Assembly: GCF_039535785.1 (NCBI RefSeq)
Contig: NZ_BAAAXV010000011.1
Coordinates: 310,001 to 374,000 of the forward strand
Origin: Nonomuraea helvata
GTDB lineage: Bacteria; Actinomycetota; Actinomycetes; Streptosporangiales; Streptosporangiaceae
Length of the DNA: 64,000 nucleotides
Reading direction: 5' to 3'
Positions 15,405 to 63,937 of the stretch are shown here, piece after piece. Below the pieces are notes generated by a model, which did not search any database, had not been told where the DNA came from, and was given only the letters and a program-made list of their open reading frames with translations. The position numbers and the translations under genes are program-made. Position 1 is the stretch's first letter; the number at the start of each line of letters is the position of its first letter.

Positions 15405-15534
15405 CTGGCCTCCCATCCGACCCTGGACCTGACCGTAGAACGGGCGCGGAACCCTCCGTACGGAGAAATTTGCCAACAGTCAGCGGGAAGGTTGGCTCTT
15501 CCTGACAGACCGCTTCTGGAGTCACAATCTCCAC

Positions 15535-40294: not shown

Positions 40295-40312
40295 CGCACT
40301 TGCGCGTACCCG

Positions 40313-40353
40313 TTGACAGCCGAAGTCTGCGCCAGTTACGGTCTGGACCGTAA
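40313..40353 (+). promoter_or_regulatory. Promoter with regulon palindrome (site A)
   Basis: TTGACA (40313-40318), an 18-base spacer and TACGGT (40337-40342) form a promoter. The perfect palindrome TTACGGTC-TG-GACCGTAA at 40336-40353 covers the -10 box. The same promoter/operator layout recurs at 45.2, 59.3 and 61.3 kb. A protein bound here would block RNA polymerase. Confidence 0.75.
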
Positions 40354-40377
40354 ATGACAGACGGAGGAGATACGCGC

Positions 40378-41385: not shown

Positions 41386-41417
41386 CCCGCTCACCCACGA
41401 CCGAAGGGGGACCTCAC

Positions 41418-42473: not shown

Positions 42474-42700
42474 CCTCATGCCTGCCCGCCCCGTGCCCGC
42501 GATCCTCGTTTCTGGGACGCCACCGGCCGCGTGGCGCGCGCCCGTCCCTGCACGTGGGGGCGCGTTGCGCCGCTCGCCGTACCGGCGCCGGGTGCGACGG
42601 GCGCAACCTCGGCGAGTGGCGGTGGCGTGGTGAAGACGTCGGACGGGCGGGCGATGCCGTGGTGAGGCGTGCGGTTCCGGCCGGCCCGTTGGATGGTGTG

Positions 42701-42719
42701 CTCCGGAAAAGGGCCGGAG
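42701..42719. terminator. Hairpin between convergent genes
   Basis: CTCCGG (42701-42706) pairs with CCGGAG (42714-42719), loop of 7. It lies 8 bases past the end of the convergent regulator gene. No U tract follows. The rest of 42474-42727 shows nothing I can support. Confidence 0.4.
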
Positions 42720-42727
42720 AGCCCCGG

Positions 42728-43933
42728 TCAGAGGGCGAGGCGGTAGAGGGTCAGGGGGCGGCCGCTGGAGCCGCTGGTGAGGTTGCCCGTGCGTTCGGCC
42801 AGCCCCGCCAGCTCCAGCCGGTGGAGCATGCGCCGGGCCGTGCGTTGCTGGACGCCCAGCCGGTCGGCGATCTCGCGGGTCGTCAGCGGCTCCTCCCCGG
42901 CCGCCGCCCGCGCCTCCAGGAGCTTCTCCAGGGTGGACACCGACAGGCCGACGCGCCGGGCGATGACCGACAGGTTCTGCGCGCCCGCCGGGGCCGAGGT
43001 GACCGACTCCAGGACGATGTCCGTGTCCGCCCGCAGCGACAGGACCGCGGCCACCTCGCCGATCCTGCGGGCCCTGGCCAGGGCGCGGCGGGCCAGGCTC
43101 TCGGCCTCCGCCGCGCTGCGCCCCAGGCCGAAACCGACCCGGACCGCGTCGTTCTGGGCGGCCAGCCGCCCCAGCATGGGCAGCCCCGTGAAGCCGCCCG
43201 TGGCGTCGTGCAGCGGGCCGCGGGTCGTCACCAGCAGGTGCGTGCCGCCGCGGAAGGCGGCCAGGGTGCCGCCGAGCGCCGTGGCCTCGCGCAGCAGGCC
43301 CTCCTCGTTGGCCACCTCGATCAGACCGAGCGCGATCTGGGCGTCCTCCTGCGCCTGCCCCTCGGCGGTCAGCATGAGCTGGCGCAGCGCCACCCGTACC
43401 GAATGGACCGACGGGACCAGGCGCAGCACGTGCAGCTCGTCGCGGAGGGCCTCGTGCACGGAGCTCAGGCAGGTGATCACCGCGTGCGCGGGGCCCTTGC
43501 GGTGGAAGGCGATGGCTTTCTTGGAGGTCATCTCCGGCCGGTACGGGAGCGTGCGCAGCTCGGCGGTCGGCAGCCCGGCCTCGGCGAACGTGGTGTTGAC
43601 GTCGGCGGCCGACAGCGTGTCGATCGACAGCCGGGTGACGTCCTGGCCCTCGTGCTGCAGGCGTACCAGGGCGCTGAGCAGCGTCGCGCCGGAGTAGTCG
43701 ACGAACGCGGCCGGGCGGGTGAGCGCCTCGGCGTCGCGGGAGAGCATGTAGGGCACTATGCCGGTGAACAGCCACCCCTCGACGGCGGAGGCGTGCGCCT
43801 CGACGATCGCGGGCGCCTGCGACTCGTGGTCGTAGTCGAGGCGCAGCGTGCTGACGCCGGGCTGCTCCTCGCAGACGGCCGCGACGTCGTCGACCAGGTC
43901 ATGCGGTCCGACGACCCCGATGACGATTCCCAC
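42728..43933 (-). CDS. Winged-helix regulator with GGDEF-like domain; probable regulator of the palindrome regulon
   Basis: A 401-residue protein in three parts. Residues 1-200 are a sensor-like alpha/beta region. Residues 205-305 look like a degenerate GGDEF-type fold (VRVGFGLGRSAAEAESLARRAL). The C-terminal 95 residues hold helix-turn-helix segments (LSVIARRVGLSVSTLEKLLE and LTTREIADRLGVQQRTARRMLHRLE). GTG 43933 is preferred because AGGGAGG sits 5 bases upstream; ATG 43954 would run into the operator. Palindrome site B lies directly upstream, which suggests autoregulation. Repressor or activator role is not shown, although -10 overlap at other sites favours repression. Confidence 0.75.
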   Translation of the reverse strand: MGIVIGVVGPHDLVDDVAAVCEEQPGVSTLRLDYDHESQAPAIVEAHASAVEGWLFTGIVPYMLSRDAEALTRPAAFVDYSGATLLSALVRLQHEGQDVTRLSIDTLSAADVNTTFAEAGLPTAELRTLPYRPEMTSKKAIAFHRKGPAHAVITCLSSVHEALRDELHVLRLVPSVHSVRVALRQLMLTAEGQAQEDAQIALGLIEVANEEGLLREATALGGTLAAFRGGTHLLVTTRGPLHDATGGFTGLPMLGRLAAQNDAVRVGFGLGRSAAEAESLARRALARARRIGEVAAVLSLRADTDIVLESVTSAPAGAQNLSVIARRVGLSVSTLEKLLEARAAAGEEPLTTREIADRLGVQQRTARRMLHRLELAGLAERTGNLTSGSSGRPLTLYRLAL

Positions 43934-43953
43934 CCACGCCTCCCTCTCGCTCA

Positions 43954-43971
43954 TTTCGGTCAAGACCGCAA
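43954..43971. promoter_or_regulatory. Regulon palindrome (site B) in the divergent region
   Basis: TTTCGGTC-AA-GACCGCAA, 14 of 16 arm positions symmetric. It lies between the regulator gene (start 43933, minus) and the aminotransferase gene (start 43994, plus), and so can serve both. Confidence 0.7.
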
Positions 43972-43993
43972 CTATAACTTGTGAGGTGCCCCC

Positions 43994-45145
43994 GTGAAGT
44001 TCCCGTCCATGGCAGAGGCGGACGGCCGCACACTCGGCGACGAGGAGGTGGCCGCCGCCGAACGGGTGATCCGCTCCGGCATGCTCAACTCCGTCTGGGG
44101 GACCGAGGCGCGGGCGCTGGAGCGCGAGATCGCCCGCGTGTACGGCACCCGCCACGCGGTCGCCTGCAGCTCCGGCACCGCGGCCCTCCATCTGTCGGTC
44201 GTCGCGGCCGCGCCGGACCCCGGGGACGAGATCATCACGACACCGATCACGGACTTCGGGACCGTGGCCCCCATCTTGGCGCAGAACGCGGTTCCTGTCT
44301 TCGCGGACGTGGATCCATCGGACGGCAATCTCGATCCGGACTCGGTGGCCGGGCTCATCGGCCCCCGTACGAAGGCGATCATGGCGGTCCACCTGTTCGG
44401 CGCGCCCGCCAGGGTCGCCGAGCTGCGCGCGCTCGCCGACGAGCACGGCCTGACGCTGATCGAGGACTGCGCCCAGGCCTGGCTGACCGGGCTCCCGGAC
44501 GGCCGGCTCGCGGGGACGGCGGGTCAGGTGGGCTGCCTCAGCCTGCAGCAGTGGAAGCACATCACCTGCGGCGACGGCGGCGTGGCGATCACCGGCGACG
44601 ACGAGCTGGCCAGGCGGATGCGGCTGTTCTCGGACAAGGGCTGGGACCGCGCGGCCGGGCGGTCGCACGCCGCCTTCGGGCTCAACTACCGCATGACCGA
44701 GCTCCAGGCGGCCGTGGCGCGGGCCCAGCTCGCCAAGCTGCCCGGCGTGGTCGCCGCCCGCCGCCGCACCGCTGTACAGCTGCTGGACGCACTGAAGGGC
44801 CTCCCCGGGGTACGGCTGCCGCGCCCCGAGGGCCACGCCTGGTGGCTCTTCCCGGTCGTGTGCCCGGACGGGGACGCGCCCGAGCTGGCCGCGCACCTGG
44901 CGGCGGCCGGGATCCCCGCGCGGGCCGGATACCTCGCCGAGCCGCTGAACAGGGCGCCCGTGTGGGGCGCGGCCATCTACGGTGCCTCCCGCTACCCGCT
45001 CGACGGCTACCGGCCGAACCCCTGCCCGCGGGCCGAGCGCATGGTGGACCGTACGCTGCTGGTGATCGACTGGAACGAGAACTACACGTCCGAGCACGTC
45101 GAGCTGATCGCCGCCGAAATGACGAAATTTCGGGCTCGACCGTAG
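43994..45145 (+). CDS. DegT/DnrJ/EryC1/StrS family aminotransferase (first copy)
   Basis: A 383-residue PLP-dependent enzyme of fold type I. The PLP lysine is in SLQQWKHITCGDGG (about residue 189), phosphate contacts are in CSSGTAALHLSV, and Asp in IEDCAQAW. The C-terminal part has FGLNYRMTELQAAVARAQL. The family transfers amino groups to keto sugars or cyclitols. GTG 43994 follows GTGAGG. It is controlled from site B, with a second weaker palindrome at its 3' end (45128-45145). It shares little beyond family motifs with the second DegT gene at 62.8 kb. Confidence 0.87.
   Translation: MKFPSMAEADGRTLGDEEVAAAERVIRSGMLNSVWGTEARALEREIARVYGTRHAVACSSGTAALHLSVVAAAPDPGDEIITTPITDFGTVAPILAQNAVPVFADVDPSDGNLDPDSVAGLIGPRTKAIMAVHLFGAPARVAELRALADEHGLTLIEDCAQAWLTGLPDGRLAGTAGQVGCLSLQQWKHITCGDGGVAITGDDELARRMRLFSDKGWDRAAGRSHAAFGLNYRMTELQAAVARAQLAKLPGVVAARRRTAVQLLDALKGLPGVRLPRPEGHAWWLFPVVCPDGDAPELAAHLAAAGIPARAGYLAEPLNRAPVWGAAIYGASRYPLDGYRPNPCPRAERMVDRTLLVIDWNENYTSEHVELIAAEMTKFRARP
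45128..45145. promoter_or_regulatory. Weak regulon palindrome (site G) at the end of the aminotransferase gene
   Basis: TTTCGGGC-TC-GACCGTAG ends exactly with the TAG stop. It is less symmetric than the other sites and lies 66 bases before site C, close to six helical turns. It may be an auxiliary site for looping, or chance. Confidence 0.35.
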
Positions 45146-45165
45146 TTACGTTCATGTATCAAGCA

Positions 45166-45211
45166 TTGACCCGGCCAAGATGCGCTCATTAGGTTTCGGT
45201 CAGGACCGGTA
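45166..45211 (+). promoter_or_regulatory. Promoter with regulon palindrome (site C) for the ABC importer
   Basis: TTGACC (45166-45171), an 18-base spacer and TAGGTT (45190-45195) form the promoter. The palindrome TTTCGGTC-AG-GACCGGTA lies at 45194-45211 and overlaps the -10 end and the likely start site. AAGGAAG then precedes the gene start at 45233. Confidence 0.75.
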
Positions 45212-45232
45212 TTAGTCGAAAGGAAGCCGCAG

Positions 45233-46477
45233 ATGAAGAAGGCAGCGGCAGTCGGCGTCGTGGCCGCCCTGAGCCTCGCGGCCGCCGGGTGCGGATCCAG
45301 CAGCGGCTCGGACAAGAGCGCCGTGACCCTGTGGATGTATCCCGTCATCGGTGACCAGGCCAAGAGCCAGGCGTTCTGGGGCAAGGTGGAGAAGGACTTC
45401 GAGGCCGCGAACCCCACGATCGACGTCAAGATCGACCAGCAGCCCTGGGAGGGCCGCCAGGAGAAGGTCACCACCGCGCTCGTCTCCAAGAAGGGCTTCG
45501 ACCTGGTGGTGCTCGGTCCCGACCAGATCCCGCAGTACGCCCAGCAGGGCACGATCGAGGCGGTGGACGACGTCGTCGCCCCGGCCAAGGCCTCCTACCT
45601 GCCGAACTCCCTGACCGCCCTCACGGTCAACGGCAAGCTGTACGGCGTCCCCATCTACCAGACGATCACCGCGCCCATCTACAACAAGAAGCTGTTCGCC
45701 GACGCGGGCGTCGAGAAGGCGCCGGAGACGCTGGCGGAGCTGAAGGAGGCCGCGCCCAAGCTGGCCGCCAAGAAGGTCGCCGTGCTCGACTACCCCGGCA
45801 AGCCCGACGTCAGCCTGAACCAGAGCTTCTACCCGATCCTGTGGGCCAACGGCGGCTCGGTCTTCGCCCCCGACGGCAAGACCGTCGCGTTCAACGGCCA
45901 GGAGGGTGTGGACAGCCTGCAGCTCCTGCTCGACCTCAAGGCGGTGGGCGGCCTGCCGGAGAACACCGCCAGCAAGACCAACGACATCGAGGGCGGCCCG
46001 CTGGCCGCCGGCAAGACCGCCATGTACCACGCGGCCACCGCGGGCATGGCCGACCAGCTCGCCGCCGCCATCGGCGCCGAGAACGTCGGCATCGGCCTGC
46101 CCCTCGAAGGCAAGAAGCGGGTCGCGTTCGGCATCCCCGGAGCCCTGGTGCTGGCCAAGCACTCCGACAGCAAGGACGCCGCCAAGAAGCTCGCCACCTA
46201 CGTGGCCTCGCCCGAGGTGACCGCCGCGCTGGCCAAGGAGTCGGGCTTCTTCCCCGCCCGCACGGACGTGACGGTGCCCGACCAGTCGGCTGCCTCCAAG
46301 GAGTTCGCGAAGTCCCTGCAGTACGCCTTCCCCGGCGACACCCACCCCAAGGCCCGCCAGGTCATGGGCGTGCTCGGCCCGCACATCCAGGCCGCGCTGC
46401 TCGGCAAGGAGGACGCGAAGACCGCGCTCGACGCGGCCGCCAAGGAGGCCGACCAGCTGCTCGGCAGCGGCGGCTGA
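45233..46477 (+). CDS. ABC sugar-type importer, substrate-binding lipoprotein
   Basis: A 414-residue extracellular solute-binding protein of family 1 (the maltose/multiple-sugar group). The lipobox is LAAAGCG (Cys at about residue 21). The mature protein begins VTLWMYPVIGDQAKSQAFW, typical of this family, with later NQSFYPILWANGGSVFAPDG and FPARTDVTVPDQ. It binds substrate outside the membrane for the two permeases that follow. No ATPase gene is present in the operon, so a shared MsiK-type ATPase encoded elsewhere probably powers it, as in other actinomycetes. Confidence 0.9.
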   Translation: MKKAAAVGVVAALSLAAAGCGSSSGSDKSAVTLWMYPVIGDQAKSQAFWGKVEKDFEAANPTIDVKIDQQPWEGRQEKVTTALVSKKGFDLVVLGPDQIPQYAQQGTIEAVDDVVAPAKASYLPNSLTALTVNGKLYGVPIYQTITAPIYNKKLFADAGVEKAPETLAELKEAAPKLAAKKVAVLDYPGKPDVSLNQSFYPILWANGGSVFAPDGKTVAFNGQEGVDSLQLLLDLKAVGGLPENTASKTNDIEGGPLAAGKTAMYHAATAGMADQLAAAIGAENVGIGLPLEGKKRVAFGIPGALVLAKHSDSKDAAKKLATYVASPEVTAALAKESGFFPARTDVTVPDQSAASKEFAKSLQYAFPGDTHPKARQVMGVLGPHIQAALLGKEDAKTALDAAAKEADQLLGSGG

Positions 46478-46510
46478 GCGCCCGCACCCCCACCGGAAAG
46501 GAAACACCTG

Positions 46511-47377
46511 GTGCGTCAACGCCTGCGTGACCCCGTCACCGGCCTGCTGTTCGTGCTGCCCGTGCTCGTGCTCTTCCTGATCTTCCGGATCTTCCCGTCG
46601 CTGGGCGCGGCGGGTATGAGCCTGACGAACTGGAACATCGGCGGCGAGTGGGACTTCATCGGCGCCGACAACTACACCCGGCTGTTCGACGACGTGAACT
46701 TCTGGCTGAGCTTACGGGTCACGCTCGTGTACGTGGCGATCTACGTGCCGCTCACGCTGCTCGTGGCGCTCGGCACGGCGTTGCTGCTCAACCAGGTGGT
46801 CTTCCTGCGCGGGCTGTTCCGCGGCATGCTCTTCCTGCCGTACGTGACCAGCTTCGTGCTGGCGGGCATCATCTGGCGCTGGATCTACGAGTTCGACGGG
46901 CTGATCAACGGCCTGCTGGCCAAGGCGGATCTCGGACCGGTGGCGTTCCTGGAGCAGACGGCCCTCGTCCTGCCCGCGCTGGCCGTGGTGTCGGTGTGGA
47001 AGGGGTTCGGCTACTCGATGCTGATCCTGCTGGCCGGGCTGAAGTCGATCCCGTCGTCGTACCTGGAGGCGGCCAGGGTGGACGGGGCGAGCGCGTGGCA
47101 GCGCTTCCGCCGCATCACGCTGCCGCTGCTCAAGCCCACGATCTTCTTCGTCGTGGTGATCGAGACGATCAGCGCGTTCCAGACCTTCGACACCGTGTAC
47201 GTGATGACCGGCGGCGGCCCGGTCCGGGCCACCTACACCCTCATCTACGGCATCTACGACCACGGCTTCAGGTCGTTCGACTTCGGCTACGCCGCCACGT
47301 GGGGCATGGTGCTGTTCGCCATCGTGCTGGTCGTGTCGCTGGTCCAGCGCCGCTTCCTCGATCGGGGGACCACATGA
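46511..47377 (+). CDS. ABC sugar-type importer permease (MalF-like)
   Basis: A 288-residue inner-membrane permease with six helices. The EAA loop is YLEAARVDGASAWQRFRRITLPLLKP (about residues 184-209 in short pieces: EAARVDGAS, then ITLPLLKP). GTG 46511 follows AAAGGAAA. It overlaps the next permease by 4 bases (ATGA). It forms the first half of the membrane channel of the importer. Confidence 0.9.
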   Translation: MRQRLRDPVTGLLFVLPVLVLFLIFRIFPSLGAAGMSLTNWNIGGEWDFIGADNYTRLFDDVNFWLSLRVTLVYVAIYVPLTLLVALGTALLLNQVVFLRGLFRGMLFLPYVTSFVLAGIIWRWIYEFDGLINGLLAKADLGPVAFLEQTALVLPALAVVSVWKGFGYSMLILLAGLKSIPSSYLEAARVDGASAWQRFRRITLPLLKPTIFFVVVIETISAFQTFDTVYVMTGGGPVRATYTLIYGIYDHGFRSFDFGYAATWGMVLFAIVLVVSLVQRRFLDRGTT

Positions 47378-48240
47378 CGATCACCGCCTCCCGGCCGGTC
47401 GCCCAGGTGGGGGCGGCCCGCGTGGCCCGCCGCCGGTGGCGGCGGAGCAGGTGGCCGCTCGCGGCCCTGCTCGCGCTGCTGTCGGTGCTGACCGTCAGCC
47501 CGTTCCTGGCGATGTTCGTGGTGGCGCTGTCGCCGGCGGGCCGGCCGACCGTGCCGGCGCAGTGGCCGGACTCGCTCACGTTCGACAACATCGCGCGGGT
47601 GCTGTCGGCGTCGGGGTTCGCCACGTGGACGGTCAACTCGCTGGTGTACGCCGTCGTCTCCGTGGTGATCATCCTGCTCACCTCGTCCATGGCCGGGTAC
47701 GCGTTCGCCAAGAAGCGCTTCCCCGGCCGCGAGGCCATGTTCTGGACGTTCCTCGCCACCATGATGGTGCCGTTCCAGGCCACGCTCATCCCGACGTTCG
47801 TGCTGGTCAACAGCCTGGACGGGGTGGACACGTTCTGGGGCCTCATCGTGCCGACGCTGGCGAACTCGCAGGCCGTCTTCCTGATGCGGCAGTTCATCCT
47901 GGGGCTGCCCGACGAGCTGTTCGACGCGGCCAAGGTGGACGGGGCCTCCGAGTGGCGGGTCTACTGGACGATCGTGGTGCCGCTGACCAGGCCGATCCTG
48001 GCCACGCTCGGCGTGTTCGTGTTCCTGTGGCACTGGAACGACTTCCTGTGGCCGCTGGTCGTCGGGCAGAGCGACGCCACGCGTACGCTGACCGTGGGGC
48101 TGACCACGCTGCGGACCGAGGAGCTGCAGCTGTCGGTGCTCATGGCCTCGGCGGCCGTGTCGGTGGTGCCGTGCCTGCTCGTGTTCTTCCTGCTGCAGCG
48201 GTACCTGGTCAACAGCATCGCGATGACCGGTCTGAAATAA
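47374..48240 (+). CDS. ABC sugar-type importer permease (MalG-like)
   Basis: A 288-residue permease with six helices and the EAA loop FDAAKVDGASEWRVYWTIVVP. The N-terminus is basic and cytoplasmic. It is the partner of the MalF-like protein and is translationally coupled to it. A DapA-family gene begins 10 bases after the stop, so the imported compound is likely its substrate or a precursor of it. Confidence 0.9.
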   Translation: MTITASRPVAQVGAARVARRRWRRSRWPLAALLALLSVLTVSPFLAMFVVALSPAGRPTVPAQWPDSLTFDNIARVLSASGFATWTVNSLVYAVVSVVIILLTSSMAGYAFAKKRFPGREAMFWTFLATMMVPFQATLIPTFVLVNSLDGVDTFWGLIVPTLANSQAVFLMRQFILGLPDELFDAAKVDGASEWRVYWTIVVPLTRPILATLGVFVFLWHWNDFLWPLVVGQSDATRTLTVGLTTLRTEELQLSVLMASAAVSVVPCLLVFFLLQRYLVNSIAMTGLK

Positions 48241-48250
48241 GGTCTTTCGG

Positions 48251-49126
48251 GTGGATGTTGCTGCACGAAACCTTAGGGACCGGCTCCGGGGCGCGCTGAT
48301 CGCCGCCGCGGCCACCCCCATGACGGCGTCCGGCGAGGTGGACCTCGACGTGGTCTCGCGTTACCTCGCCGGCCTGGTGGCCGATGGCGTCACCGGCCTG
48401 GCGGTGCTCGCCCACACGGGCCGCGGCCCGTACCTCGCCCCGGACGTCCGCGCCGGGGTCGTCGAGCGCGCCGTGGCGATGGGCGTGCCGGTGCTGGTCG
48501 GCGTGGGCGGCGGACCGTCCGATCCGGCGGAGCAGGCGGGCGTCGCGGCCGAGCTGGGGGCCGACGGCGTGCTCGTGTTCCCGTCGAACGGCGACCGGGT
48601 GGCGCTGCACGAGGAGGTCTGGCAGGCGGCCCGCCTGCCGATGATCGCCTTCGACCTCTACACCCGCCCGTGCCCGGCCGGCACACTGCGCGAGCTGCTG
48701 CGGCACCCCGGCGTGGCGGGGCTCAAGACCGCCCTGCTGTCGGACGCGATGGGCTGTCAGCGGGCCATCGCGCTCACCAGGGAGGCGGACAGGCTGGCGA
48801 TCACGGGGGAGGACCGCATGTTCGGCCCGTCCCTGCTGTGGGGCGCCGAGGCGGCCCTGGTCGGCATCGCGGCGGCGAGCGTCGGCGTGACCGCGGCCGT
48901 CCTGGAGGCGTTCGACGGCAAGGACCTGGGCGCTTTCGTCGCGGCGTCCGGGCGGCTGGACCGGCTGGCGCAGGCCACGTTCACCGAGCCCATGGAGGGC
49001 TACGTGCAGCGCATGCTCTGGCTGGCCGCCGCCGAGGGCCGCGTGCCCGAGTCGCACGCCTATGACCCGTACGGCCCGCCCCTGCCGGAGGAGGAGCGGG
49101 CCGGGGTCATCACGGCTTCTCGGTGA
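48251..49126 (+). CDS. Dihydrodipicolinate synthase family protein (second DapA-like)
   Basis: A 291-residue TIM-barrel enzyme of the DapA/NanA/KdgD group. The Schiff-base lysine is in GVAGLKTALLSD (about residue 158). The segment GALIAAAATPMTASGEVDLDVVSRYL is the family N-terminus. It ends the importer operon. Its last 17 bases overlap the convergent dehydrogenase gene. A keto-acid lyase or dehydratase role in catabolism of the imported compound is inferred. Confidence 0.85.
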   Translation: MDVAARNLRDRLRGALIAAAATPMTASGEVDLDVVSRYLAGLVADGVTGLAVLAHTGRGPYLAPDVRAGVVERAVAMGVPVLVGVGGGPSDPAEQAGVAAELGADGVLVFPSNGDRVALHEEVWQAARLPMIAFDLYTRPCPAGTLRELLRHPGVAGLKTALLSDAMGCQRAIALTREADRLAITGEDRMFGPSLLWGAEAALVGIAAASVGVTAAVLEAFDGKDLGAFVAASGRLDRLAQATFTEPMEGYVQRMLWLAAAEGRVPESHAYDPYGPPLPEEERAGVITASR

Positions 49127-55805: not shown

Positions 55806-57749
55806 TCAACGCCCGGCGATGGCCACCCTGACCAGGTTGCGGCCGCGTACCGCGTACAGGGCCCGGTGGGAAGGGTCGAGCGCCAGCTTGGGCTCGCCGC
55901 CGAACCACTGCCCGGCCAGCCCCTCCACGATGGGCTTCGCGGTGAACGCGACCAGGTCGATCTTGTAGATCGCGTCGCCGTCCGTGCAGTACGCCACCCG
56001 GCCGGTCACGAACAGCTCGCCGCCCTTCGCCCCCACCTTGATCGTCCTGGTGACCTTCCTGCTCCGCAGGTCGAACTCGAACACCTCGCCCGTGCTCGCC
56101 ATGCCGTACAAGGTGCCCGTCCTGCCGAGGGAGAGTGAGGAGATCTGGCGGGCGCCGGGCACCGGCTCCAGCTGCCAGAGCAGCTTCCGCCTGACGAGGT
56201 CGAAGGCGGCCAGGCGGGCGGTCGTCGTGACCGGCGGCAGGCCGAGGCCCTCCTGGATCAGGGTGCCCAGGTAGGCGACGCCGTGCCGGGCGGCGACCGA
56301 GTAGACCGTCTGGCGCTCCACCACCGGCCGGTACGTCTCGAACGTGCCGGTGCCGGGCGAGTAGAGCGAGAGCGCGCCGTTCATGTGGCCGGGCTCCGGC
56401 TGGGTGGGCATCACGATCAGACCCGTCGCGGGGTCGTGGGCGAGGTCGCGCGGGCGGTCCTGCTGGTTGCCCGTGCGGGCGATCAGCCTGGCCTCGGTCT
56501 GGCCGGGGCGGTGCGCGTACAGGGCCGCCTGGGTGTAGACGCCCAGGTACGTGGTGTCGCCGACGGTGATGAGCGTCTTCGGCTCGCCCGCGATGCCCAG
56601 CCTGGTCACCTTGCCGGTCGCGACGTCGTGGATGTCGGCGCCGCCCTTGCCGCCGACGTAGACCCGCCGGCCGTCGGAGTGCACGGACATCGGCTCCTCG
56701 GGCGCCGATCTGAAGCCGCGCTGCACGAGGTTGACGTAGTCGATCGAGCCGGTCGCCGGGTCGTAGACGAAGACCGCGCTGTCCTGGATGCCGTAGATCC
56801 GGCCCTCGTGGGCCAGCAGGCGGTGGGTGGCCGCCTCGAAGTACGGGACGCCGAGCACCTCCAGCCGCTCCGTGGCCAGGTGGTAGCGGTAGAACGTGCC
56901 GGAGGGGCGGCCCGCGAAGTAGACGTACCCGTCGTGGATCAGGACCGAGACGATGTACTTCTCGCCCGCGGCGGTGGCCTTGACGACCTTGTGGTTCTGC
57001 GGCGCGGCCTTCTCCAGCACGAGCAGCTCGGCCAGCGAGTTCATGCCGCCGGCCAGATGGGTGTCCGACATGGCCAGGCTGGCGACCCAGTCGCGGTCGG
57101 CCACGGCGGGCGGCAGGAGCTCGCGCTTCTCGCCGGTCGCGCGGTCGATGGCGATCAGGTGGGCGTGGGTGCCGATCCCGGCGTAGACGTACCTGTCGTC
57201 GGCCTGGATGCTGCGGACGTACGCCTCCCCGGGGGCGGGCTGGCCCAGGTCGCGGCTCGTGCTCGTGGCCGGGTCGTACTCCCAGACGCGGCCCGGCTCG
57301 GACGTGCCCAGGTAGACCTTGCCGTCAGGGGAGGAAGCCATGGTCCAGATGTAGTGGTCGGGGTATTCGGCGACCTTGGTGACCTGGTTCGCGACGGTGT
57401 CGATCCGGTACAGGTCGGATCTCGCGTGGGTGCCGACGTAGACGTCGGTGCCGACCCGGCACATCGCCCAGATGCCCACGCCGGTCGGGATGTCGAAATG
57501 GGTCGTGACCGAATCTTTGGCGAGGTCGTACGCGCCGACCACGTTGGGCGACAGGCCGCGCGAGCCCGCGTAGAGCACGCCGCCGACGAACTCGCCGTTG
57601 CCGAGCGGGCTGGCGACGCTGGCCGGGCCCAGGTCCGTGAGGGTGCCCTCGGACTGCGTGCGGTTGGCGGCGCGGGCGGGCGTGGCCGTGAGAGTGGCGG
57701 CCGCCGTGGTCGCGGCGGCCGCCTGGAGGAAACGACGGCGGGGGATCAT
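55806..57749 (-). CDS. Tat-exported beta-propeller protein (first paralogue)
   Basis: A 647-residue secreted protein. The twin-arginine signal is MIPRRRFLQAAAATTAAATL with cleavage near TPARA. The mature part is built of repeated four-strand blades (VYVGTHARSDLYRIDT, VYLGTSEPGRVWEYDP, VYAGIGTHAHLIAID), as in PQQ/WD-like propellers. AAGGGAG precedes ATG 57749. It is paralogous to the protein at 59.4 kb over its full length. It follows the amidohydrolase pair on the same strand and has palindrome site D in its leader. A carbohydrate- or ester-handling role outside the cell is a guess; no catalytic motif is visible. Confidence 0.82.
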   Translation of the reverse strand: MIPRRRFLQAAAATTAAATLTATPARAANRTQSEGTLTDLGPASVASPLGNGEFVGGVLYAGSRGLSPNVVGAYDLAKDSVTTHFDIPTGVGIWAMCRVGTDVYVGTHARSDLYRIDTVANQVTKVAEYPDHYIWTMASSPDGKVYLGTSEPGRVWEYDPATSTSRDLGQPAPGEAYVRSIQADDRYVYAGIGTHAHLIAIDRATGEKRELLPPAVADRDWVASLAMSDTHLAGGMNSLAELLVLEKAAPQNHKVVKATAAGEKYIVSVLIHDGYVYFAGRPSGTFYRYHLATERLEVLGVPYFEAATHRLLAHEGRIYGIQDSAVFVYDPATGSIDYVNLVQRGFRSAPEEPMSVHSDGRRVYVGGKGGADIHDVATGKVTRLGIAGEPKTLITVGDTTYLGVYTQAALYAHRPGQTEARLIARTGNQQDRPRDLAHDPATGLIVMPTQPEPGHMNGALSLYSPGTGTFETYRPVVERQTVYSVAARHGVAYLGTLIQEGLGLPPVTTTARLAAFDLVRRKLLWQLEPVPGARQISSLSLGRTGTLYGMASTGEVFEFDLRSRKVTRTIKVGAKGGELFVTGRVAYCTDGDAIYKIDLVAFTAKPIVEGLAGQWFGGEPKLALDPSHRALYAVRGRNLVRVAIAGR

Positions 57750-57786
57750 GCGCGGGGCTCCCTTGGTGAAGTTGGGCCGCACGCTA

Positions 57787-57804
57787 TAACGGACTAGGCC
57801 GTAA
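57787..57804. promoter_or_regulatory. Regulon palindrome (site D) upstream of the Tat beta-propeller gene
   Basis: Plus-strand TAACGGAC-TA-GGCCGTAA; read on the minus strand it is TTACGGCC-TA-GTCCGTTA. Most consensus positions are kept. It lies 38 bases before the start codon at 57749. The promoter boxes are less clear than at sites A, C, E and F. Confidence 0.55.
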
Positions 57805-57807
57805 TGT

Positions 57808-58524
57808 CTAGATCCGGAACAGGGCCGCGGCATTGCGCCAGGCGACCCGCTCGGCGGTCTCGCCGGTGAGCCCCGCCGCCGCGACCGCTCCGAACGCCGA
57901 CGACGGGTCGATCAGCGTCGCGTCGGTGCCGAACAGCAGCCGTGCCGGGTCCACACCCGCCACCACCTCCGCGATGCGGCCCGCGGGGGCGTGCGACCAG
58001 CAGGGCTCCAGGTAGAGGCGGTCGCAGGCGTTCGCGGCCTCGATGGCGTACCGGAAGCCGTCGGCGCCCATGTGCCCGGCGATCACCCGCAGGTCCGGGA
58101 TGTCCTGGCAGAGCTCCGCCAGGGCGAGCACCGACGTGCCCCAGGTGTGCACGAGCGCGGGCCGGCCGGTCGCGGCGACCAGCGTGAGCGCGTCGCGGAG
58201 CTGCGGAGAGGCGACCGGCGAGCCCGTGTAGTCGGTGTGGATCTTGACGCCGACGAACCGCCCGCCCGGCAGGTACGCCGCCAGGTCCGCCTCCGCCTCG
58301 CGCAACCGGCGCGGGTTGACCGTGACGTAGCCGAGCAGGCGGTCCTGCGTCTCCAGGTACGCGGCGAGTGCGCGGTTGCCCGCCTGCGCGTCGTAGATGA
58401 CGGCCTCGGTGGCGGAGACGATCGCCCGGTCGATGCCGTAGCGGTCCATGGTGGCGAGGTTGGCCTCGGCCACGTCCATGGTGAAGAACCACGGGCCCCA
58501 GTGGGCGTGCACATCGATGATCAC
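57808..58524 (-). CDS. Amidohydrolase family protein with intact metal site (pair 1)
   Basis: A 238-residue TIM-barrel amidohydrolase of the COG2159 type. Metal ligands are visible: DVHAH (His6, His8), the Lys/His of VGVKIH, LVHTWGT, AGHMGADG, and Asp in LFGTDATLID. GTG 58524 overlaps the stop of the degenerate partner by 4 bases, so the two are made together. The family includes decarboxylases and hydrolases of small carboxylic compounds. Substrate unknown. Confidence 0.85.
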   Translation of the reverse strand: MIIDVHAHWGPWFFTMDVAEANLATMDRYGIDRAIVSATEAVIYDAQAGNRALAAYLETQDRLLGYVTVNPRRLREAEADLAAYLPGGRFVGVKIHTDYTGSPVASPQLRDALTLVAATGRPALVHTWGTSVLALAELCQDIPDLRVIAGHMGADGFRYAIEAANACDRLYLEPCWSHAPAGRIAEVVAGVDPARLLFGTDATLIDPSSAFGAVAAAGLTGETAERVAWRNAAALFRI

Positions 58525-59294
58525 GGCTGGGACCTCCCCAGGAGTCCTGTCGCGTTGCCGCCTGCCACGGCGGCGATCTCCTCCGGCTTCAGCCCGCTGG
58601 TCGCCAGCCGCAGGAGGGGCACGAGAGGCTCGTAGTGCGGGGTGCGCGAGCCGTACAGGAGGCGGTCGGCGCCGAGTTCGGCGGCGGCGAGCTCCAGCGC
58701 GTCAGGGGAGTTGAGCAGGCGGGTGGAGGTATGGAAGCCGGGCTCGTCCGCGGCGGCCACCAGGAAGTCGCCCAGGTGGTAGAAGTGCGTGTCAAGGAAG
58801 ACCACCCTGGCCCCGAGCCCGGCGAAGGGCTGCCAGAACCTGCGCACGTCGCCTCCGGTGAGCACCACCAGGCCGAGCCGCGCCGCCCGCCGGGCGACGT
58901 GCCGCACGGACGGGAACCCCGCCTCGACGCCCTGCTCGTCGGGGAACAGCCGCACGGCCCGGACGCCTTCCGAGGCCAGCCGGTCCAGCTCGCGTGCCGC
59001 GCCGATCGGGTCGCGCAGGTCCACAGCCCCGACCGGAACGACCTCCGGGGCCTCCCGCGCGAGCAGCTCGTCGTTGCCCGAGCGCACGTCGAACAGCGCC
59101 GCCCGCAGGCTCGCCACCGCCCCCGCCCGGATCCGGTGCCCGTCCAGCAGCCCGAGCACCGAGTCGGGCGTGCCGGGTGGTCCGTCGCGGTCCGGGTAAG
59201 CCCCGAACAGCACGTCCACGTCGAGCGCCACCTCCAGCTCGCCGACCAGCCGCCACGCGTCGAACGGCATACCGGTCCGATCCTCAATCGCCAT
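58521..59294 (-). CDS. Amidohydrolase-like protein with degenerate metal site (pair 1)
   Basis: A 257-residue protein of the same fold as its neighbour, but key ligands are gone: the N-terminal HxH is replaced by DVDVLFGAY, the strand-5 His region reads VVLTGGDVRRF, and the last Asp motif (FGSD) reads LLYGSRTPH. It is therefore probably not a metal hydrolase. It is first in the operon and coupled to the intact paralogue, suggesting a regulatory or structural partner. ATG 59294 is used; ATG 59306 and 59270 are alternatives. Site E in the divergent region may control it too. Confidence 0.75.
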   Translation of the reverse strand: MAIEDRTGMPFDAWRLVGELEVALDVDVLFGAYPDRDGPPGTPDSVLGLLDGHRIRAGAVASLRAALFDVRSGNDELLAREAPEVVPVGAVDLRDPIGAARELDRLASEGVRAVRLFPDEQGVEAGFPSVRHVARRAARLGLVVLTGGDVRRFWQPFAGLGARVVFLDTHFYHLGDFLVAAADEPGFHTSTRLLNSPDALELAAAELGADRLLYGSRTPHYEPLVPLLRLATSGLKPEEIAAVAGGNATGLLGRSQP

Positions 59295-59310
59295 GGCGCA
59301 CATCATGCCA

Positions 59311-59350
59311 TTGACGAACCGTGCTTATAAAGTTACGGTCTGGCCCATAA
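59311..59350 (+). promoter_or_regulatory. Promoter with regulon palindrome (site E)
   Basis: TTGACG (59311-59316), a 17-base spacer and TACGGT (59334-59339) with the palindrome TTACGGTC-TG-GCCCATAA at 59333-59350. It lies between the divergent amidohydrolase pair 1 and the second beta-propeller gene. Confidence 0.7.
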
Positions 59351-59379
59351 TTGCTCAGCAATGAACGTGAGGTGCGACT

Positions 59380-61344
59380 GTGCTCCGCTCCGTCCTGGTC
59401 ATCCTGTCGGCGCTCTTACCCGCGCTCCTTACCGGCCCGGTCGCCCGGGCGGCCTCCTGCGACGCCCCGGCGGTGGAGCGGTTCGGCCCGGCGTCGGTCA
59501 CCGGCGCCATCGTGGGCGCCGCCGTGCACGACGGGCACGCCTACGTGGTGACCCGCGGCCTGAAGCCGCCCGTGCTCGCCGACGTCGACCTCGCCACCCG
59601 GAAGGTCGTCAGGAGCGTCACCCTGCCCGACGGCCCGGCCGCCGGTGAGCCGGAGGGCGCGTGGGCCACGGCCGTGTCCGGCGGCAAGATCTACGTCGGC
59701 ACCTATCCGGTGCCCGACCTCTACCGCTTCGACCCGGCCACGGGCGCCGTGGAGCGTCTGGCGTCGTTCGGGAAGAACGGCGGCTTCGTCTGGAGCCTCG
59801 CCGCCGCGCCCGACGGCACGATCTACGCGGGCACCTACCCGGACGGCAAGGTCCGTGAGTACGTCCCGGCCACCGGCGCGGTGCGCGACTTCGGCGTGCT
59901 GGTCCAGGGCGAGCGGTACGTGCGGGCGGTCGCCGCCGACGACACCTACGTGTACGCGGGGCTGCTCGACAAGGGCAAGCTCGTCCGGATCACCCGGGCG
60001 GACGGCACGGTCAAGGAACTGGCGAACGCCCCGACCGGCGTCGGCGCCGTCACCGTCCACGGCGACCGGGTGCTGGCCGCCGCCGGCGACGTGCTGATCG
60101 ACGTGCGCTCGGACGGCACGGACGAGCGGCGCGTTACCCTCGAGGGCGGCACGATCGACATGCTGACCGTGGCAGCCGATGAAACCGTCTACGCCACCTC
60201 CCGGCCCGACGGCGCCGTCCACCGCTACCGGACGGGCGACACCGCCTTCACCAAGGTCGCCGACCCGCCGTCGCCGGGCGACGAGACCAGGCGGCTGCAG
60301 CAGCTCGACGAGAACACCCTGCTCGGCTTCGCGGGCAGCGGCGGCATGTGGTGGCTGGACCTCCGTACCGGGAAGTCCGATTTCGTCGACCTGATCGACG
60401 CCGGCCTGCCCAGCGGCCCGGAGCGGCCGCAGAGCATGCTCCTTGTGCCGAACCGCGCCGTCTACATCGGCGGCCACTTCTCCATGGAGGTACGCGACCT
60501 GCGTACGGGCGAGCGGCGCAGGTTCCGGATGCCCGGCGAGCCGAAGGACCTCGTACGGCGGGGCGACAAGATCTACGCCGCGATCTACCCGAGCGGTCAG
60601 ATCGTCTCCGTCGACCTGCGCACGGACAAGGTGCGCAGCGTCGGCTACCTGGGACACGGCCAGCAGCGCCCCTGGGACATCGAGTACGACCCCACGACCG
60701 ACAAGCTCGTTGTCGCCAGCGCCCCGCTCGGCGCCAGGCTGAACGGCGCCCTGTCCGTGGTCGACCCGCGCACTGGCCGCATCGACGTCTACGAGGGCGT
60801 CATCCCCGACGAGAGCCTCATGAGCCTCTCGCTCGACCCCCGGGGTGGTGTCGTCTACCTGGGCGGCGACGTGCTCGGCGGCGGCGGGACCCCGCCGGTC
60901 AGGACGTCCGCGTCCGTGGCCGCCTTCGACCTGCGCGCGCGCAAGGTGCTCTGGCAGGTGGACCCGGTCCCGGGACACCGCACGTTCCAGGACATCAAGG
61001 TGCACGACGGGCTGCTGTACGGCGTCTACAAGCGCGACACCGGCACCTGGATCGCCATGGACCTGGCCACCAGGCAGGTGGTCCGGCAGGGCAAGCTCTC
61101 CGGGTACGGCGAGCTGACCGTGCACCGGGGCAGGGTGTTCGCGTCCACGTTCTTCGGCGGCGGGAACGCGTACGAGCTGGGCGCCGAGGCGAAGCTCCTG
61201 GCGACCGGGCTCGGCGACGAGTGGTACACCAACCCGCAGCTGCACTTCGAGCCCGGCTCCTGGCGGGCGTGGGCGCTCGTGGGCAGGGACCTGGCCAGGA
61301 TCAGGCTCGATCCGGGCTGCCCGGCCTTGACCGTCAATCAGTGA
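59380..61344 (+). CDS. Sec-exported beta-propeller protein (second paralogue)
   Basis: A 654-residue secreted protein with a Sec signal (LRSVLVILSALLPALLTGPV, cleavage near ARAAS). The mature part has the same blade repeats as the Tat paralogue at 55.8 kb (IYVGTYPVPDLYRFDPATG, IYAGTYPDGKVREYVPATG, VYAGLLDKGKLVRITR). GTG 59380 follows GAGG. It uses a different export route from its paralogue, which suggests different folding or cofactor needs. It is followed by the second amidohydrolase pair under a separate promoter (site F). Confidence 0.82.
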   Translation: MLRSVLVILSALLPALLTGPVARAASCDAPAVERFGPASVTGAIVGAAVHDGHAYVVTRGLKPPVLADVDLATRKVVRSVTLPDGPAAGEPEGAWATAVSGGKIYVGTYPVPDLYRFDPATGAVERLASFGKNGGFVWSLAAAPDGTIYAGTYPDGKVREYVPATGAVRDFGVLVQGERYVRAVAADDTYVYAGLLDKGKLVRITRADGTVKELANAPTGVGAVTVHGDRVLAAAGDVLIDVRSDGTDERRVTLEGGTIDMLTVAADETVYATSRPDGAVHRYRTGDTAFTKVADPPSPGDETRRLQQLDENTLLGFAGSGGMWWLDLRTGKSDFVDLIDAGLPSGPERPQSMLLVPNRAVYIGGHFSMEVRDLRTGERRRFRMPGEPKDLVRRGDKIYAAIYPSGQIVSVDLRTDKVRSVGYLGHGQQRPWDIEYDPTTDKLVVASAPLGARLNGALSVVDPRTGRIDVYEGVIPDESLMSLSLDPRGGVVYLGGDVLGGGGTPPVRTSASVAAFDLRARKVLWQVDPVPGHRTFQDIKVHDGLLYGVYKRDTGTWIAMDLATRQVVRQGKLSGYGELTVHRGRVFASTFFGGGNAYELGAEAKLLATGLGDEWYTNPQLHFEPGSWRAWALVGRDLARIRLDPGCPALTVNQ

Positions 61345-61372
61345 CTCTATTAGGTTTCGGTCTGTGCCGAAA
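61327..61372 (+). promoter_or_regulatory. Promoter with regulon palindrome (site F), probably leaderless
   Basis: TTGACC (61327-61332), an 18-base spacer and TAGGTT (61351-61356). The palindrome TTTCGGTC-TG-TGCCGAAA at 61355-61372 includes the GTG start at 61364. Transcription starting 7-8 bases after the -10 box would begin at the start codon, so the message would be leaderless. Confidence 0.7.
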
Positions 61373-62056
61373 TACGTGATCGACGCCCACCGGCTCATCG
61401 GTCCCGTGCCGTTCGACGACCTGCCGAACGACCCCCGGGACGAGATGGGCCGGCTGGGCATCGACCGGGCCTGCGTCACCCACACGCTCAGCCTCTACTC
61501 CGACCCGCGGGCGGGCAACGAGGCGCTGCTCGCGCTCGGCGACCCCCGGCTGATCCCCGTACCCGTGGTGGTGCCGGGGGCCGGGGGCGAGCCGGAGGGC
61601 CCTGAAGCGGTGGCGGCGTGGGGCGTACGGATGATCAGGCTCTGCCCCGAACGCCACCGCTTCGACCTCACGGGACCGACCGCCGTGCGGTGGCTGGCCG
61701 AGATCGGCCTGCCCGTGGCGGTCGACCTGGACGAGACCTCGCCCGCCCAGCTCCGCCACCTCGCCGAGCGCCTGCCCGGCCTGCCCCTCCTCGTGCTCAA
61801 CCCCGGCTACCGCAGGCTTCGCGCGCTGGCCGAGCTGATGACCGAGGCGCCGGACGTCCTGGCCGAGATCGGCACCGTCAACACCCAGGGCGGCGTCGAG
61901 TGGCTGGCGGCGCGGTTCGGGGCGGAGCGGCTGGTGTTCGGCACGGGCGCGCCGGTGTCCGACGACTGCGGGCCGCGCTTCCTGCTCGACCACCTCGACC
62001 TGCCCCCGGAGGACGTCGAACGGATCGCCGCCGGGACGCTGGAGGCGCTGCTGTGA
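61364..62056 (+). CDS. Amidohydrolase-like protein with degenerate metal site (pair 2)
   Basis: A 230-residue amidohydrolase-fold protein with a damaged metal centre: the first motif reads VIDAHRLIG (one His kept, second lost), the strand-5 and -6 His residues are absent (VAVDLDETS, LLVLNPGYR), and the Asp motif reads LVFGTGAP with Gly in place of Asp. It overlaps the intact partner by 4 bases (GTGA), the same order as in pair 1. It probably serves as a non-catalytic partner. Translation is likely leaderless from GTG 61364. Confidence 0.75.
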   Translation: MPKYVIDAHRLIGPVPFDDLPNDPRDEMGRLGIDRACVTHTLSLYSDPRAGNEALLALGDPRLIPVPVVVPGAGGEPEGPEAVAAWGVRMIRLCPERHRFDLTGPTAVRWLAEIGLPVAVDLDETSPAQLRHLAERLPGLPLLVLNPGYRRLRALAELMTEAPDVLAEIGTVNTQGGVEWLAARFGAERLVFGTGAPVSDDCGPRFLLDHLDLPPEDVERIAAGTLEALL

Positions 62057-62763
62057 TCCTCGACGCCCACGGCCACGTCGGGACCTGGCCCGACTTCATC
62101 GTCCCGCATCCCACCGCCGAGCACCTCGTGGCCGCGATGGACCGGATCGGCGTCACCGCGATGGGCATCAGCCACCTGCTCGCCGTCGGCCCGGACGCCG
62201 TGCGCGGCAACGAACTGGCCATGGAGATCGCCGAGCGCTTCCCCGGCCGGTTCGGCGTGTGGCAGGTCTACAACCCGCACCACCGCACCCCGCTCGCCCG
62301 CGACGGCGTGTGGGGGGTCAAGCTCCACCCCGACGTGCACCGGTGCCGCCTCGACGACTCCCTGTACGAGCCGGTCTGGCGGCTCGGCCTGCCGGTGCTC
62401 GCGCACGGCCAGACGGACTCGCCGTGGAGCGACCCCGCCCAGTTCGCCGCCGTCGCCGCCCGGCATCCGCACGTGCGGCTGATCATGGGGCACACGGGGC
62501 TCTGGGCGTACGGTTTCGGCCGGGCGGCCCGCCTCGTGGCCGAGCACCCGAACGTGTTCCTGGAGACGTGCGGCTCGAGGATGACCGGCCGGTGGATCGC
62601 CCGGCTGGCCGCGCTGGCGGGCGCCGAGCGGGTGCTGTTCGGCTCGGACGCGTGCTTCCTCGACCTGCGCACGGGCTACGGCCGCGTCGCCCTGGCCCCG
62701 CTCAGCGACGCCGATCGCGCCCTCGTCCAGGGCGCCAACCTGGCCCGCCTCCTCGGTTCATGA
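62053..62763 (+). CDS. Amidohydrolase family protein with intact metal site (pair 2)
   Basis: A 236-residue TIM-barrel amidohydrolase with all expected ligands: ILDAHGHVG (HxH), VKLHPDVH, LAHGQTD, MGHTGLW and LFGSDACFLD. It is coupled to the degenerate partner upstream and followed after 13 bases by an aminotransferase gene. Its fold and size match pair 1 but it is not a close copy. Substrate unknown; a lactone, amide or carboxylate of the aminated compound is plausible. Confidence 0.85.
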   Translation: MILDAHGHVGTWPDFIVPHPTAEHLVAAMDRIGVTAMGISHLLAVGPDAVRGNELAMEIAERFPGRFGVWQVYNPHHRTPLARDGVWGVKLHPDVHRCRLDDSLYEPVWRLGLPVLAHGQTDSPWSDPAQFAAVAARHPHVRLIMGHTGLWAYGFGRAARLVAEHPNVFLETCGSRMTGRWIARLAALAGAERVLFGSDACFLDLRTGYGRVALAPLSDADRALVQGANLARLLGS

Positions 62764-62776
62764 AGGGAAAGCTCTC

Positions 62777-63937
62777 GTGACGCTCGCCCTCCACGGCGGC
62801 ACCCCCGTCCGGTCGGCCCCCTGGCCCGCCTGGCCGCCGCCCCTCGATCCCGCGCAGCGCGAGCTCGTCACCAAGGTGCTCGAGAGCGGCCTCTGGGGGG
62901 CCACGCAGGGCGGCTCCGTGGTCGCGGACCTGACCGCCGCGTTCGCCGGGCTCTCCGGCGTCCCGTACGGCGTCGCGGTCGGCAACGCCACGCTCGGCCT
63001 GTTCGCCGCGCTGCGCGGTCTGGGCGTGGGCAGAGGGGACGAGGTGGTCGTCCCGGCGTACACGTTCGTGGCGTCGGCCACCGCCGTGCTGCTGACCGGT
63101 GCCACGCCCGTCATCGCCGACGTGGACCCGGCCGACCTGCACCTGTCCGCGCAGACCGTACAGGACGCCCTGACCGGCAGGACAGCCGCGATCATGCCCG
63201 TGCACCTGGCGGGCAGCCCGGCCGCCATGGACCCCCTCAACGCCCTGGCCGCCCGCCACGGCCTCGCGGTCGTCGAGGACGCCGCCCAGGCGCACGGCGC
63301 CACGTACCATGAGCGGCCCGTCGGCGGCCTGGGCGACGCGGGCGTCTACAGCTTCCAGTCCAGCAAGGCGATGACCGCGGGCGAGGGCGGCCTGATTGTC
63401 TGCCGCGACGAGGCCGTGCACGGTCGTTGCTGGTCGGCCTGCAACGTCGGCCGCGAGCTCGGCGGGCGCTGGTACGGCCACCCGTCCGTGGGCTGGAACC
63501 TGCGCCTCACCGAGATCCAGGCGGCACTCCTGCTGCCCTGGCTGGACCGCCTCGACGCGGAGATCGACCGCAGGAACGCCTTCTGCGCCGCCCTGGAACG
63601 CGAGCTGGCCGCCGTCCCCGGCGTGAGCGTGGTGCCCCGGCCCGAAGGCACGACCCGCGACTCGCGCCATCTCCTGATGCTCCGCCTCGACCCCGGCGTG
63701 GACCGCGTGTTCGTGCTCGCCGCCATGGCCGCGGAGGGGGTGCCGCTCGACGCCGGGTATCCGCCGCTCGGGACCATGGCCGCCCTCAGCGCCGAGGGCG
63801 CCCGCGCCGAACCCTGCCCGGCCGCCGAGGAGGCCGCCAGGACCGTCGTGTGGGTCCGCCAGGCGATGCTCATGGCCGCCCCGGAGGCGGCCGCCGACGT
63901 CGCCGAGGCGCTCGCAAAGGTGCTGTCCGCTCGCTGA
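62777..63937 (+). CDS. DegT/DnrJ/EryC1/StrS family aminotransferase (second copy)
   Basis: A 386-residue PLP enzyme of the sugar/cyclitol aminotransferase group. It begins with the family's ALHGGTPVRSAPWPAWPP, has VGNATLGLFAAL for phosphate binding, VEDAAQAHGA with Asp, and the PLP Lys in SFQSSKAMTAGEGG (about residue 200). It resembles the AHBA synthase/StsC branch more than the first DegT gene does. GAAGGGAAAG precedes GTG 62777. It is last in the site F operon. Confidence 0.88.
   Translation: MTLALHGGTPVRSAPWPAWPPPLDPAQRELVTKVLESGLWGATQGGSVVADLTAAFAGLSGVPYGVAVGNATLGLFAALRGLGVGRGDEVVVPAYTFVASATAVLLTGATPVIADVDPADLHLSAQTVQDALTGRTAAIMPVHLAGSPAAMDPLNALAARHGLAVVEDAAQAHGATYHERPVGGLGDAGVYSFQSSKAMTAGEGGLIVCRDEAVHGRCWSACNVGRELGGRWYGHPSVGWNLRLTEIQAALLLPWLDRLDAEIDRRNAFCAALERELAAVPGVSVVPRPEGTTRDSRHLLMLRLDPGVDRVFVLAAMAAEGVPLDAGYPPLGTMAALSAEGARAEPCPAAEEAARTVVWVRQAMLMAAPEAAADVAEALAKVLSAR

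Follow-up and report, generated by a model that had tools for sequence, protein, structure and literature searches.

Why should a genome keep, twice over and back to back, a gene for an amidohydrolase that has lost its metal site, each time directly upstream of a gene for one that has retained it? This arrangement is found in Nonomuraea helvata (Actinomycetota; assembly GCF_039535785.1, contig NZ_BAAAXV010000011.1, positions 310,001 to 374,000 of the forward strand), in a stretch of 64,000 nucleotides which is referred to here as the window and in which four genes of the PF04909 family, A, B, C and D, form the pairs A-B and C-D. Very probably, both pairs belong to a single old family of obligate heteromers, each composed of an enzyme and a pseudoenzyme. 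Within the large amidohydrolase superfamily, profile scores label both proteins of such a pair as amidohydrolases and nothing more; should the pair be one enzyme, expression of the intact gene by itself might yield no activity or a wrong one, and this could make it harder to assign functions to these genes.

Two pairs with one complete ligand set each

The two pairs and their overlaps, in coordinates of the window, are as follows.

58521-59306, minus strand: A, degenerate amidohydrolase (PF04909), ligand columns D-L-G-D-R; start uncertain within 59306-59270
57808-58524, minus strand: B, intact amidohydrolase (PF04909), ligand columns H-H-H-H-D
61364-62056, plus strand: C, degenerate amidohydrolase (PF04909), ligand columns H-L-D-N-G
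62053-62763, plus strand: D, intact amidohydrolase (PF04909), ligand columns H-H-H-H-D
58521-58524, minus strand: GTGA overlap of 4 bases, stop of A and start of B
62053-62056, plus strand: GTGA overlap of 4 bases, stop of C and start of D

All four proteins exceed the Pfam gathering cut-off for PF04909 (Amidohydro_2; 26.4 bits), with 41.9 bits for A, 89.6 for B, 51.4 for C and 74.2 for D. The five ligand columns of the alignment are the HxH of strand β1, the His of β5, the His of β6 and the Asp of β8, the intact set reading HHHHD. B and D keep all five, and at least four of the five metal or catalytic residues are gone in each of A and C. The original prediction, made from the letters of the window, had noticed the lost HxH and Asp ligands of the upstream genes, the complete ligands of the downstream genes and the two GTGA overlaps. 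All of this holds, and the loss extends to the mid-barrel histidines of β5 and β6, with the first His of HxH surviving in C. From their sequences, A and C are best regarded as members of PF04909 by fold and not as catalytic members. The residues concerned are listed below; those of A and C were placed by alignment, with the coordinates for A taken from the reading frame.

59208-59222, minus strand: residues 29-33 of A, DVDVL, at the position of the β1 DxHxH motif
58644-58646, minus strand: Arg221 of A (YGSRTP), replacing the β8 Asp
61382-61396, plus strand: residues 7-11 of C, DAHRL, degenerate β1 motif
61724-61726, plus strand: Asp121 of C, replacing the β5 His
61799-61801, plus strand: Asn146 of C, replacing the β6 His
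61811-61822, plus strand: residues 150-153 of C, R-R-L-R, the RxxR motif of the degenerate C/E/G subfamily, missing in the intact partners
61946-61948, plus strand: Gly195 of C (FGTGAP), replacing the β8 Asp
62062-62076, plus strand: residues 4-8 of D, DAHGH, intact β1 ligands
62404-62406, plus strand: His118 of D, β5 ligand
62491-62493, plus strand: His147 of D, β6 ligand
62647-62649, plus strand: Asp199 of D, β8 ligand

The multiple alignment agrees with the earlier choice of DVDVLFG (residues 29-35) as the β1 equivalent of A; another candidate for this motif, DAWRL (residues 16-20), was dropped because the alignment places the motif at DVDVL.

Pairing across genomes

Orthologues of C and D occur in an identical set of 45 out of 197 related genomes and are neighbours in all 45. 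For a wider survey, 84,980 bacterial and archaeal species were scanned with a profile built from degenerate chains only, which is blind to neighbouring genes and detects only those degenerate chains that carry the motif VFG[TS]G; this gave 70 loci with 102 degenerate genes that had sufficient flanking sequence. An HHHHD partner follows immediately downstream on the same strand in 93 of the 102, which is the order that the original prediction had proposed to look for in other genomes. Since the degenerate residues of A and C are kept across the genus and beyond, ligand loss and pairing stand far above chance. Of 136 non-redundant pairs, 115 allow a stop/start overlap of 4 bases.

The pairs recur in at least five phyla (Actinomycetota, Bacillota, Planctomycetota, Latescibacterota and Zixiibacteriota), the actinomycetotal genera including Nonomuraea, Streptosporangium, Pseudonocardia, Jiangella, Microbacterium and Isoptericola, while metagenome-assembled genomes with pairs are labelled Latescibacterota, Zixiibacteriota, Planctomycetales, Ruminiclostridium and Clostridia. 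When 396 genomes of the phylum were searched by profile, most matches were low-scoring, ordinary intact amidohydrolases, and only the paired matches of one distant family were taken from this search. A short C-like fragment with no D gene lies at 15308-15433 of locus L225 (G042 C653); the genome concerned carries a complete C-D pair in another place.

A probable old duplication

A maximum-likelihood tree unites all main degenerate chains, those of Nonomuraea as well as those of Latescibacterota and Bacillota, in a single clade apart from the intact chains, with a support of 99 in the Shimodaira-Hasegawa-like approximate likelihood ratio test (SH-aLRT). The subclades on the degenerate and the intact side correspond by eye, and the distance matrices of the partners are correlated with r=0.88 over 125 pairs, the maximum of 1000 permutations being 0.13. 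Judged from these sequences, A-B and C-D in the window probably descend from one old duplication and not from convergence; that A and C go back to the same loss event is favoured, if not decisively so. The original prediction had argued for an obligate heteromer from the repetition of the order in two operons. The obligate pair stands, but the two operons are not independent evidence for it, given the common clade of the main degenerate members.

The median ratio of nonsynonymous to synonymous substitution rates (dN/dS) is 0.24 for A, 0.27 for B, 0.33 for C and 0.27 for D. By this measure, purifying selection acts on the degenerate chains about as strongly as on the intact ones.

A second degenerate class, with the ligand columns HAVRD or HRRRD, is found in Jiangella and others (loci L115, L218 and L220-L223, also L083 and L089). 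These genes adjoin intact ones in other orders, HRRRD lying mostly downstream of the intact gene.

Natural fusions and structure models

In two lineages the two barrels are encoded in one open frame, the degenerate barrel first and the intact barrel second. Such fusions are found in two related loci of Jiangella (L082, 6974-8596, 540 amino acids; L088, 7239-8999, 586 amino acids, with a linker enlarged by a GDP-rich repeat) and in Allorhizocola rhizosphaerae (L158, 7971-9533, 520 amino acids), the latter being the orthologue of C-D of the window and followed by the same kind of aminotransferase gene. Both halves of the tree place the Jiangella and Allorhizocola fusions on separate branches; therefore, two independent fusion events have probably taken place, each in the order degenerate-intact as read from the frames.

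AlphaFold2 models of the fusions reach a mean predicted local distance difference test (pLDDT) of 90.9 and a predicted template modelling score (pTM) of 0.90 for Allorhizocola, and 85.3 and 0.85 for Jiangella despite about 40 disordered linker residues. Alignment A4, the input for the Allorhizocola model, combined single C-type chains with three fusions and with one in-frame pair whose stop codon was read through for the purpose of modelling, so that the D half of the alignment has four rows only. As these pTM values belong to two-domain chains, the relative placement of the two barrels is predicted with confidence. A physical heteromer is argued for because natural fusions exist in two lineages and their barrels are docked confidently in the models, and we infer that the unfused chains would form the same complex. 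If this is true, the fusions offer a natural system for studying how homodimers become heteromers of enzyme and pseudoenzyme.

A structure search with the intact barrel gave 3cjp as the best match (Z 26.6), with decarboxylases, lactonase-like proteins and ACMSD at Z 22-25; these matches are single chains spanning one barrel, which are uninformative on the dimer, and they fix the fold and not the reaction.

A model for the pairs and the points against it

The following sequence of events would account for the pairs. An ancestral PF04909 enzyme, probably a homo-oligomer, would have duplicated, one copy (B/D) retaining the metal site and the other (A/C) losing it while being kept as a non-catalytic subunit. 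The degenerate-intact order and the stop/start overlap would couple translation so that both chains are made together, and the two (β/α)8 barrels would then dock as modelled for the single-chain fusions. Metal chemistry would be performed by the intact chain only, and the degenerate chain would most likely stabilise the assembly and shape the pocket of its partner. In the words of the original prediction the inactive chain controls or completes the active one, and we infer a contribution of this kind.

Several observations weigh against an old family of obligate heteromers. One of the 102 degenerate genes has its intact partner upstream instead (L182), six lie in three loci in which both members are degenerate (L179, L181 and L185), and two have no partner (L180 and L183). 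The correlation of the partner trees is partly due to shared species history, and the docking of homologous barrels by AlphaFold may come from a memory of homodimers. An origin of A by recent duplication of B is disfavoured, though the approximately unbiased (AU) test of an A+B clade, with p=0.079, gives no outright rejection. Degenerate members standing mostly alone, which the original prediction had named as telling against itself, did not turn up, with two lone genes in 70 loci.

In the three doubly degenerate loci the genes are tandem pairs (L179, 4272-5743; L181, 7062-8529; L185, 6652-8147) in which most ligand residues are gone in both members. It is possible, from their sequences, that they encode heteromers made entirely of pseudoenzymes.

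What the degenerate chain may contribute

Some residues are specific to the degenerate chains. Common to the A and C/E/G types are Arg92 (Lys in intact chains), Glu179 and Pro197. Arg92 is present in 93% of the C/E/G types and in all A types (100%), P95 in 99% and H98 in 93%, with H98 and the RxxR motif missing in A. Two arginines in R..R spacing follow shortly after the β6 position in 80 of 98 degenerate chains of the C/E/G type, in none of 138 intact chains and in none of 43 A-type chains. If the pair is one enzyme, mutation of a few conserved residues offers a direct test of what the dead subunit does.

In ACMSD, a PF04909 homodimer, substrate binding requires an arginine of the neighbouring chain located 11 residues past the β6 His; in the human enzyme this is Arg235, with His224 as the β6 ligand (PMC9021598). 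By analogy, the R..R of C-type degenerate chains may act in trans as Arg239* does in ACMSD, although its spacing to β6 is about 4 residues off and A is not covered. This leads to a tentative picture of an asymmetric split active site, possible but with less than even prospects: an ACMSD-like homodimer would have been duplicated, with one barrel keeping only the metal and the other only the arginines donated in trans (R150/R153, perhaps R92), and the product would have been reused across phyla as a two-subunit module of sugar catabolism, fused at least twice, with both metal sites lost in some lineages.

In a special form of the heteromer reading the degenerate chain would be a ligand-binding regulatory subunit, whose pocket senses a metabolite of the pathway and switches the intact partner on or off. 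The conservation of the pocket-side positions R92, P95 and H98 despite lost catalysis and the location of the pairs in catabolic operons with transporters fit such a role, but folding or the interface might just as well account for these residues and A has neither H98 nor the RxxR motif, so that a regulatory subunit appears rather unlikely.

Alternatively, the two proteins could act separately in one pathway, the degenerate chain being an independent binding protein or having another activity, and their adjacency would merely follow operon logic. In favour of this reading, stop/start overlaps are common in operons generally, and two lone degenerate genes exist. The joint occurrence in 45 of 45 genomes, the order fixed across phyla and the two fusion lineages with their confidently docked barrels make separate action improbable.

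A further alternative is that the degenerate chain is itself still catalytic and that its metal site has changed; Asp7, Asp/His/Asn9 and Asp121, for instance, might form an acidic cluster for a different metal. Of the C/E/G-type chains, 90% retain Asp7 and 77% retain Asp121, and a non-standard metal site does exist in AibH1 (PMC7782822). Against this, the β8 Asp, on which standard hydrolysis depends, has become Gly in 87% of the C/E/G types and Arg in all A types, the β6 His is lost without exception in both, and the replacements vary between subfamilies. With Gly or Arg standing in most cases where the β8 Asp would be, other residues do not restore the standard metal site; such a restoration was the second result that the original prediction had named as adverse to it. 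A catalytic degenerate chain has little probability.

Finally, that the degenerate genes are decaying pseudogenes, as the lost ligands alone might suggest, is refuted by open frames, invariant residues of their own and a dN/dS of A and C as low as that of the intact partners.

Comparison with known systems

The closest precedent found for a heteromer of enzyme and pseudoenzyme such as A-B and C-D is AibH1H2, the 2-aminoisobutyrate hydroxylase of Rhodococcus wratislaviensis, a heterotetramer made up of a catalytic chain and a second chain whose role is essential but unclear (PMC7782822, PMC10401708). Here too, two adjacent genes of the amidohydrolase superfamily are involved, with the non-catalytic aibH1 listed before aibH2 (PMC7782822), as in A-B and C-D. 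AibH1, however, keeps a five-ligand mononuclear, non-standard metal site (PMC7782822), whereas A and C have neither the β6 nor the β8 ligand. AibH2 has a dinuclear Mn/Fe site (PMC7782822), whereas B and D carry the mononuclear HHHHD set. The aib genes adjoin genes for a ferredoxin and a reductase, in contrast to the β-propellers, DegT aminotransferase and histidine phosphatase found here. No AibH chain came up in profile searches of PDB sequences, either with A1 at a limit of E 0.1 or, among the 60 of 74 matches listed, with A2 at a limit of E 10. By analogy, A-B and C-D may work like AibH1H2, but they are not members of its type; if the heteromer is real, AibH1H2 is one case of a wider phenomenon.

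ACMSD belongs to PF04909 as well and matches the intact half of the fusion in fold, with Z about 22.8, but consists of two identical active chains, whereas in A-B and C-D one of the two chains is dead. In the aspartate transcarbamoylase (ATCase) of Pseudomonas, a metal-less pseudo-dihydroorotase of the amidohydrolase superfamily is needed for the activity of its partner (PMC7053772). This resembles A and C in that a metal-less chain is paired with an enzyme, but there the partner is the unrelated ATCase and here it is a PF04909 paralogue.

The top matches by both sequence profile and fold are two uncharacterised PF04909 structures, 3cjp (Clostridium acetobutylicum CAC3332) and 3irs (BB4693). 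To our knowledge, neither has a degenerate partner. Two-part systems of enzyme and pseudoenzyme are so far known from few characterised examples, and searches of an open-access library found no description of the present family of pairs.

Operon context and pathway

The A-B and C-D operons are divergent and lie back to back at 55.8-63.9 kb, separated by about 75-110 base pairs. Their further genes, assigned by profile scan, and a third gene cluster of the window are given here.

55806-57833, minus strand: β-propeller (DUF6923) with a twin-arginine translocation (Tat) signal, in the same operon as A-B; order kept in the genus
59380-61344, plus strand: second β-propeller (DUF6923), apparently secreted, first gene of the C-D operon; order kept in the genus
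62777-63937, plus strand: DegT/DnrJ/EryC1 aminotransferase, downstream of D in most relatives
39410-49126, plus strand: probable sister operon of the same pathway, from a gene set shared with Virgisporangium and Jiangella loci

The sister operon holds an oxidoreductase-like gene, an epimerase, DHDPS-like aldolases, a second DegT-like gene, a sugar solute-binding protein and two permeases. In Virgisporangium and Jiangella, some of these genes lie next to C-D or A; therefore, the assignment of A-B, C-D and the 39.4-49.1 kb genes to one pathway is supported, and hence, from gene context, the idea of the original prediction that the two operons share a regulon. A scan of the gap between the divergent operons for promoter and terminator consensus sequences found none, and so lends no support to the regulon.

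In other loci the pairs are accompanied by genes for sugar-type solute-binding proteins, permeases, Gfo/Idh-like proteins, an epimerase, a DHDPS-like aldolase and a DegT aminotransferase, the Gfo/Idh and permease labels being partly read from the sequences and not all from profile scans. Further companions are genes of the FAH, heparinase II/III and mandelate-racemase families. From this company the operons look like systems that take up and degrade a sugar in oxidised or aminated form, and one may guess that B and D are a sugar lactonase or a (de)carboxylase.

A second DegT aminotransferase gene lies at 43994-45145 of the window; its Jiangella counterpart (L076, 11919-13861) is located directly upstream of A, just as the first DegT gene immediately follows D. 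Each amidohydrolase pair seems to come with an aminotransferase of its own.

The two long DUF6923 β-propellers lie beside pairs throughout the genus and recur in other families. Another recurrent neighbour is a protein of about 400-450 amino acids with the motif G-V-V-G-P-H-D-L and no clear Pfam family (L079, 9242-10588; L086, 9126-10469; L076, 10612-11838; L124, 3175-4380); the Jiangella copy has a weak C-terminal winged-helix match and is perhaps a regulator. Genes for hydantoinase A/B (oxoprolinase-type) lie at 35642-39395 of the window, directly upstream of the probable sister operon.

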